Assembly: GCA_002282015.1 (NCBI GenBank)
Contig: NCIJ01000003.1
Location: 124,001-188,000 of the forward strand
Source of the DNA: Sulfuricurvum sp. 17-40-25
GTDB taxonomy: Bacteria; Campylobacterota; Campylobacteria; Campylobacterales; Sulfurimonadaceae
Length of the DNA stretch: 64,000 nucleotides
Reading direction: 5' to 3'
Positions 18,237 to 19,972 of the stretch are shown here, one piece after another (position 1 is the stretch's first letter; every line of letters starts with the position of its first letter). The translations under genes and the position numbers were made by a program. The notes below the pieces were generated by a model, which did no database searches, had not been told where the DNA came from, and saw only the letters and a list, made by a program, of their open reading frames with translations.

Positions 18237-19001
18237 ATGTTTTTGATCAAAAAATACATTTCGTCTTTTTTGATGCCTTTTCCCATTTTTCTTTTCCTTC
18301 TTGGAATAGGACTCTACTTTTTATATCGCGGAAATATCAAACGTTCTAAAGTATGGATTCTCGGTTCCATCATTTGGATCAGCATGCTCTCCTACTCTCC
18401 TTTTGCAGCATTGTTGCTTCTGCCATTAGAAAGTACTTACTCAAAAGTCGAACTTACCAGTACACCGCCCAAATACATCCATGTACTTGGAAATGGGCAT
18501 ACCAGTAACCCACGTCTTCCGCTGTCTTCTGAAATAGCACTTGTCTCTCTTGCTCGTATCACTGAGGGGGTTTCACTCTACAAAGCACATCCCAATATGA
18601 AACTTATCTTTAGCGGCTATGGTGGCTATGATCCTGTCTCTAATGCCCGAAAAAACAGCCAAATGGCGATTGCACTTGGTGTTAATCCAGCCGACATAAT
18701 TCTTCTTGAAACTCCCAAAGACACTCACGAAGAAGCAATAGCCTCTAAAAAGATTGTCGGGGATGAGCCGATTATCCTTGTCACCTCAGCATCCCATATG
18801 GTTCGAGCTTCTGCTTTATTTCGTAAAGAAGGTATCAACATCATACAGGCACCTACCGATTTTCAAGTAAAAGCCGACAGTAACTTATGGCAATTTCCCT
18901 CAGCAGATGGATTAGTACGCTCCGAAGCCGCTTTTCATGAATACCTAGGTCTGGCATGGGAAAGAGTAAAAAGTATGTTAAAGAAAGTTGCTGAGCTATA
19001 A
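18237..19001 (+). CDS. YdcF/ElyC-type DUF218 membrane protein
   Basis: 254 residues. Two membrane segments (about 12-30 and 38-60) are followed by a cytoplasmic or periplasmic DUF218 domain (about 78-240) with the family pattern: strand YIHVLGNG, then 'SGYGG', 'DTHEEA' and 'LVTSASHMVRA'. ElyC in E. coli affects peptidoglycan and envelope integrity; the exact reaction is not settled. Its ATG overlaps nothing but begins straight after the rsfS stop, so it is in the nadD-rsfS transcription unit. It ends 18 bp from the convergent SoxZY fusion gene. Confidence 0.85.
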   Translation: MFLIKKYISSFLMPFPIFLFLLGIGLYFLYRGNIKRSKVWILGSIIWISMLSYSPFAALLLLPLESTYSKVELTSTPPKYIHVLGNGHTSNPRLPLSSEIALVSLARITEGVSLYKAHPNMKLIFSGYGGYDPVSNARKNSQMAIALGVNPADIILLETPKDTHEEAIASKKIVGDEPIILVTSASHMVRASALFRKEGINIIQAPTDFQVKADSNLWQFPSADGLVRSEAAFHEYLGLAWERVKSMLKKVAEL

Positions 19002-19019
19002 ACTATTACTAAGATACCC

Positions 19020-19805
19020 TTAACCAGAGCAACCCCCGCCAACAGAAAGATAGACTTGTTTTTTTGTTGTGTAAAACTTCCCATCTTCCCCTTGAACAAC
19101 AATCATGAGAATACTTGCAGATGAACCATCAACGACAAGAGTATTTAAATTTATCTCGACAGAATAATCAATAATACTGTGGTCACTGATCTGCCATTGA
19201 CAAATTAATTTCATCTGTGCATTTTCTTCTATTGCAAAAAGTGTCACAGATTTGGCTTTGATATCTGAATATACATCAACAGGAAAAGCTCTACCATAAA
19301 GTGCATTAGCAGATGTCCTTAGCTGAATTTTATCGGTATTGATAAGCTCAATATCCCCCAAGGTCTCTTTAACAGCAGGAATATTCACACGATAAGGCTC
19401 CTCTTCTTTTCCTGCATTTTTATTTTTGGTTAGGGGAATAGGGCCAGAGTCTACTGCAATCCTTTGGGTCAAATGATTTTTGTGGTTATTATTGTCAATG
19501 ACTTTTATGTTCAAAGCTGATGCGCCTGTACTTTTATAAGCGAACGTTAGACTAGGATTTTTGGAAAGGTACTCACTGCCAATAAGATCAAATACGGTCT
19601 TATTATCTTCTTTGGCAACGATTCTAGTCAGAAACTCGTCCTTAAAGCCTCTTCGGCCCGCTTCTTTAGTACTTAACCTCAGACTTTTTATCATTATATC
19701 TGCGTAAACCGTACCATTTAAATTACGTTTCACTTTCATATCTATTGAGTCTTGTTCGGCATTTAGCCCAAGACATAAGAAGAGTATAACTAACACTTGT
19801 TTCAT
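19020..19805 (-). CDS. Periplasmic SoxZ-SoxY fusion, putative sulfur-compound carrier
   Basis: 261 residues. Sec-type signal peptide (1-16). Residues about 20-118 resemble SoxZ: a RRGFKDEFLTRI segment, 'KTVFDLIGSEYLSKNPSLTF' matching the SoxZ 'G..V......saNP.lsF' block, and a final 'VIDNNNHK' strand. After a charged linker (119-155), residues 156-261 match SoxY: 'KSVTLFAIEEN', an '..DGKFYTTKKQVYLSV' strand pair, and the extreme C-terminus GGGCSG, where Cys259 occupies the place of the sulfur-carrying Cys in SoxY's GGCGG swinging arm. SoxYZ is normally a dimer of two proteins and SoxY is usually exported by Tat; here order is Z-Y in one chain. No soxA, X, B, C or D is nearby. The function (thiosulfate or another sulfur compound) is inferred. 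Confidence 0.75.
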   Translation of the reverse strand: MKQVLVILFLCLGLNAEQDSIDMKVKRNLNGTVYADIMIKSLRLSTKEAGRRGFKDEFLTRIVAKEDNKTVFDLIGSEYLSKNPSLTFAYKSTGASALNIKVIDNNNHKNHLTQRIAVDSGPIPLTKNKNAGKEEEPYRVNIPAVKETLGDIELINTDKIQLRTSANALYGRAFPVDVYSDIKAKSVTLFAIEENAQMKLICQWQISDHSIIDYSVEINLNTLVVDGSSASILMIVVQGEDGKFYTTKKQVYLSVGGGCSG

Positions 19806-19895: not shown

Positions 19896-19972
19896 TGGTG
19901 CGCCCGAAGGAATTCGAATCCCTGACCGCCGGTACCGCAAACCGGTGCTCTATCCAGCTGAGCTACGGACGC
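19896..19972 (-). tRNA. tRNA-Arg (anticodon GCG)
   Basis: 77 nt including an encoded CCA. The cloverleaf folds cleanly: 7-bp acceptor stem (GCGTCCG with CGGGCGC, one G-T pair), D stem GCTC/GAGC, anticodon stem CCGGT/ACCGG with loop TTGCGGT, and T stem AGGGA/TCCTT with loop TTCGAAT. The anticodon GCG reads CGC and CGU arginine codons. Most bacteria instead use an ACG anticodon deaminated to ICG. It is transcribed toward the SoxZY gene. Confidence 0.95.

Follow-up and report, generated by a model that had tools for sequence, protein, structure and literature searches.

The window, which is the whole 64,000-nucleotide stretch that was analysed, contains on its reverse strand a gene in which a SoxZ domain and a SoxY domain are joined in one chain (the soxZY fusion). 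The open reading frame coincides exactly with the one given in the initial annotation; it starts with ATG, an RBS-like AAGG lies 7 nt upstream of this codon, and the protein ends in ...LSVGGGCSG. The features of the locus are as follows.

19020–19805, reverse strand: soxZY fusion gene, 261 aa (open reading frame, Pfam, NCBIfam and relatives' profiles)
19758–19805, reverse strand: Sec-type signal peptide, residues 1–16 (MKQVLVILFLCLGLNA), from the sequence, with a predicted cleavage site
19452–19748, reverse strand: SoxZ domain, residues 20–118 (Pfam SoxZ, 7.4e-7; model strands at 20–115 with high pLDDT)
19380–19451, reverse strand: charged linker, residues 119–142 (from the sequence; lower model confidence)
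19044–19379, reverse strand: SoxY domain, residues 143–254 (Pfam SoxY, 2.5e-6; structural match to SoxY 2nnc)
19023–19043, reverse strand: C-terminal arm VGGGCSG, residues 255–261 (aligned with the SoxY2 tails GGCEG/GGCGG; pLDDT below 50 at 259–261)
19029–19031, reverse strand: TGC codon of Cys259, the presumed sulfur-binding residue (sequence and tail alignment)
19896–19972, reverse strand: tRNA-Arg (gcg), adjoining the fusion upstream on the same strand
18237–19001, forward strand: DUF218 (YdcF/ElyC-like) gene, converging on the fusion (neighbour comparison)

The Pfam SoxZ family matched residues 50–110 (E = 7e-7) with 29.2 bits, above its gathering score of 25, and the Pfam SoxY family matched residues 146–259 (E = 2.5e-6) with 28.1 bits, just under the cut-off of 28.4; in a genome-level search, the SoxY match exceeded the cut-off. 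Using profiles built from relatives, with the query itself among the profile sequences, the Z and Y halves matched at 1e-28 and 9e-33. Both halves match the families that the initial annotation had proposed for them, in the Z-then-Y order that it had read. The SoxY and SoxZ equivalogs TIGR04488 and TIGR04490 were not reached (25.7 vs 125 and 29.7 vs 76 bits, respectively). The NCBIfam family TIGR04557, the quinoprotein dehydrogenase-associated SoxYZ-like carrier, has a cut-off of 140 bits and gave 42.1, split over two stretches of permuted order, the best of which placed residues 52–109 on profile positions 167–224, as expected from the reversed domain order. Membership in TIGR04557 was rejected because the score is under the cut-off and the order is Z-Y, not Y-Z. 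A chance open reading frame was rejected on the basis of the two domain matches and the structure model. The gene is one open reading frame without sox neighbours, not a pair of subunit genes in a sox operon.

The usual SoxYZ is a heterodimer of two subunits, in which SoxZ hitch-hikes on the Tat-exported SoxY, and native SoxY bears a glycine-rich Cys arm at its free C-terminus. The signal of the soxZY fusion is of the Sec type by sequence, as had been noted, and has no Tat RR motif, whereas SoxY2 of the same genome begins with the Tat-like MERRKFLG. The SoxY motif A-x-NGG-x-VPV reads NALYGRAFPV in the fusion. At the C-terminus, Cys259 (GGGCSG) aligns with the sulfur-binding Cys of SoxY (GGCEG in SoxY2), in line with its noted placement.

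An AlphaFold model of the fusion was built on an alignment of 57 sequences and reached a mean pLDDT of 88.6 and a pTM of 0.85, with low pLDDT in the signal peptide, the linker and the last residues. Apart from the low-confidence tail the fold is confident, and, with pLDDT below 50 at residues 259–261, the model gives no sign that Cys259 would be buried. In fold re-ranking, the best solved match of the Y half was SoxY 2nnc (Z 10.3, 2.2 Å over 106 residues), and Paracoccus SoxYZ chains matched it at Z 9.6 to 9.9. The Foldseek matches include Paracoccus 2ox5_C and 2oxg_C (target TM-score 0.81), which are presumably SoxZ chains.

The neighbours of the fusion are tpiA/pgk/gap, nadD, rsfS, the DUF218 protein, the tRNA, a UbiA-family protein and miaA. 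These are housekeeping genes; no sox gene, quinoprotein dehydrogenase or SoxH-like hydrolase was found among them, and both the tRNA-Arg neighbour and the isolation from sox genes that had been described were confirmed. In eight genus relatives without the fusion, an empty spacer of 3 to about 130 bp separates the 3′ end of the DUF218 gene from tRNA-Arg; in the source genome the distance is 894 bp, so the fusion is an insertion at a site that is empty in these relatives. In the closest relatives (DUF218 protein 72–78% identical), other genes come after the DUF218 gene. The DUF218 protein of the source genome is 5–6 residues longer than that of most relatives. A 9-base direct repeat, GCTGAGCTA, is present at 18990–18998 (the end of the DUF218 gene) and at 19957–19965 (inside tRNA-Arg). 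Integration directed by the tRNA was not convincing, since only this 9-base repeat was found and an integrase was not seen nearby. Spread by phage or plasmid was also rejected: the fusion had no match in phage or plasmid collections and no relative among viral contigs.

A full-length match to the fusion was present in 1 of 41 genus genomes (several of the genus relatives are listed as Sulfuricurvum), which indicates that the gene is dispensable. Profile searches detected ZY fusions in 5 of 228 family genomes, namely the source genome, G043, G055, G013 and G527; the survey of order and neighbours suggested by the initial annotation thus shows such fusions to be rare. G043 carries two ZY genes and G013 at least three, some of them cut by contig ends, and G043 and G055 are listed as Helicobacteraceae MAGs. 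At the limits applied, a sample of 397 phylum genomes yielded no further ZY fusion; a scan of named genomes revealed one in the isolate S010_26. A scan of genome contigs with the single protein as query returned no relative, a later query found relatives, and no close homologue of the fusion was found. Single-frame fusions of the TIGR04557 type in the same phylum, and also in the genus (G051, G070), run Y then Z, so the earlier statement that known fusions have this order holds. The phrase "SoxZY fusion" was not found in the open literature searched, though the term SoxZY occurs there, and no name for the ZY fusions of g8, g14 and S010_26 was found in that literature.

The g8/g14 ZY fusions are often tandem. 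In G043, G055 and G013, a protein with a metallo-beta-lactamase fold, akin to the SoxH-like families TIGR04558/4559, is encoded next to the ZY genes, and the g8/g14 fusions and the SoxH-like metallohydrolase stand away from other sox genes. About 30 family genomes encode related hydrolases (mostly 38–45% identical), and at least two of these genomes have the gene 2–3 kb from soxY2Z2. One ZY protein each in G043 and G055 begins with a cytochrome c domain; at L033:12568-13755 and L034:8694-9872, cytochrome c is fused to a SoxZ-SoxY without the Cys, and a SoxH-like hydrolase lies alongside. The ZY fusions at L114:2563-3639 and L035:6142-7140 have an extra N-terminal region of about 90–120 residues, to which neither Pfam (L114) nor NCBIfam (L035) gave a name. 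The search for SoxB gave only a weak match in G013 and none in G043 (82% complete) or G055 (89% complete). Among the ZY fusions seen, the tail Cys is kept only in that of the source genome; the tails of the others read GGGGV, GGGEV, RNMGG, GGN, TNI, GGGEA and GGSEG, and the SoxY2 tails seen keep the Cys. Since all of its ZY fusion relatives have lost the Cys, the role common to them may be one that does not depend on covalent sulfur. The G527 protein (L107:7968-9026) combines SoxZ-SoxY with a Sel1-repeat region, has no Cys at the expected place, falls outside the ZY clade in the Y and Z+Y trees and is probably an independent fusion. In two genomes, a SoxY domain with an intact GGC motif is fused to a VWA/YfbK-type domain (L039:6739-8688 and L188:5776-7755).

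In the Y-domain tree, the soxZY fusion groups with five ZY domains of g8/g14 (100/99), apart from SoxY1. In the concatenated Z+Y tree, the ZY fusions other than that of G527 form a set with support of 85/75 that is placed on the SoxY2Z2 side (100/100), whereas the tree of the Z half alone leaves the fusion unplaced. In the Z+Y tree, the fusion sits on a very long branch of 2.54 changes per column, so its exact place there is unsure. As judged from these sequence trees, the ZY fusions belong to the SoxY2Z2 (soxCD-type) side of the family.

The fusion resembles SoxY2Z2 (soxCDY2Z2 in Campylobacterota) in having both domains, the fold and a C-terminal GGC arm, and differs from it in being one chain with Z first, in its Sec rather than Tat signal and in its location outside sox operons. 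It shares with TIGR04557 the single-chain SoxY/SoxZ carrier and the GGGC motif; in TIGR04557, the order Y then Z places this motif within the chain and not at the C-terminus. The Z-then-Y order is shared with the g8/g14 and S010_26 fusions, and the Y-domain clade with the g8/g14 members. Unlike the soxZY fusion, these proteins lack the Cys, those of g8/g14 adjoin the SoxH-like hydrolase, and several have extra N-terminal parts, including cytochrome c.

Ordinary sox genes are located elsewhere in the source genome: contig C35 carries soxXYZAB with soxH, contig C5 soxYZB, and contig C7 SoxY2, SoxZ2, a SoxC above its cut-off and, in the SoxD position, a cytochrome c. Besides the fusion, the genome therefore has three SoxYZ pairs, two SoxB genes and SoxX, A, C and H. 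The two soxYZ-soxB loci lie on different contigs (L071, L072), and a third SoxB-like gene, under the cut-off, is found at L071:6354-8045. With these genes present, the fusion is an extra carrier and not a substitute, and a replacement for a missing sox pathway was rejected.

We consider it likely, with a probability of roughly 0.6, that the soxZY product is a self-contained periplasmic carrier of the SoxYZ kind, auxiliary and acquired by one lineage. The Sec signal would export the single chain, which would free the SoxZ part from dependence on a Tat-exported SoxY, and the two domains would pack like the usual heterodimer. With SoxY last in the chain, the glycine-rich Cys259 arm sits at a free C-terminus like that of native SoxY, and the Z-Y order is chemically sensible for this reason. 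Cys259 would be loaded with sulfane or polysulfide sulfur, which may be passed to the SoxCD of the cell, with sulfate release via SoxB or SoxH; the fusion is thus probably auxiliary to SoxCD/SoxB/SoxH. Growth of Sulfurovum indicum on S0 raises soxCDY2 and a soxH2 gene (PMC10045233), which would agree with the fusion being auxiliary in the SoxCD branch. The lack of an operon partner, the long branch, the altered SoxY motif and the sub-cut-off equivalog scores count against the carrier reading, as do the loss of the Cys in the other ZY fusions and the restriction of the gene to 1 of 41 genomes of the genus.

It is rather unlikely, though conceivable, that the fusion acts outside the Sox cycle. 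The fusion would then have a different partner, for instance an organosulfur/alcohol dehydrogenase or a module with a SoxH-like hydrolase, in line with what has been proposed for Y-Z fusions, and its arm would bind another sulfur ligand or only dock. The Y-Z fusions SoxYZ-S2/S4 are located near PQQ alcohol dehydrogenase and soxH (PMC11237559), and the g8/g14 fusions next to the SoxH-like metallohydrolase also favour such a partner. However, the soxZY fusion has no such neighbour, the only SoxH of its genome is 28% identical and belongs to the soxXYZAB locus, and the fusion keeps the Cys that other ZY fusions lost; moreover, the protein is on the SoxY2Z2 side and the genome encodes SoxXA, SoxB, SoxC and SoxH. 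That the fusion is a recently acquired gene, decaying or unused and without a current role, appears less likely still. Its presence in 1 of 41 genus genomes, its long branch, its isolation and its G+C content of 0.37, compared with 0.41 for the window, would suit this explanation, but the frame is intact and the start site, the signal, both full-length domains and the critical Cys are kept. A binning or assembly artefact with a foreign piece joined in is very improbable: although the draft genome comprises 50 contigs, the gene sits within a 228-kb contig and both of its flanks show the gene order of the genus.

The favoured reading makes the protein a variant of a known carrier, rare and recently arrived. 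More tentatively, the ZY fusions may form a separate Campylobacterota branch of SoxYZ-like proteins in which the arm was left free; most would have given up the Cys and, paired with a SoxH-like hydrolase of their own, serve as docking or redox modules, in one lineage with a built-in cytochrome c, and the soxZY fusion of the source genome would have kept covalent carrying. If this is true, the ZY set would be a natural series that separates the carrying and docking roles of SoxYZ. The role of SoxH is still open (PMC11237559, PMC10045233), and the Cys-less ZY relatives beside a SoxH-like hydrolase offer a testable lead on it. If the soxZY fusion is active, work on the Sox cycle would gain a simple one-chain construct, in place of a heterodimer, for loading, labelling and crystallisation.
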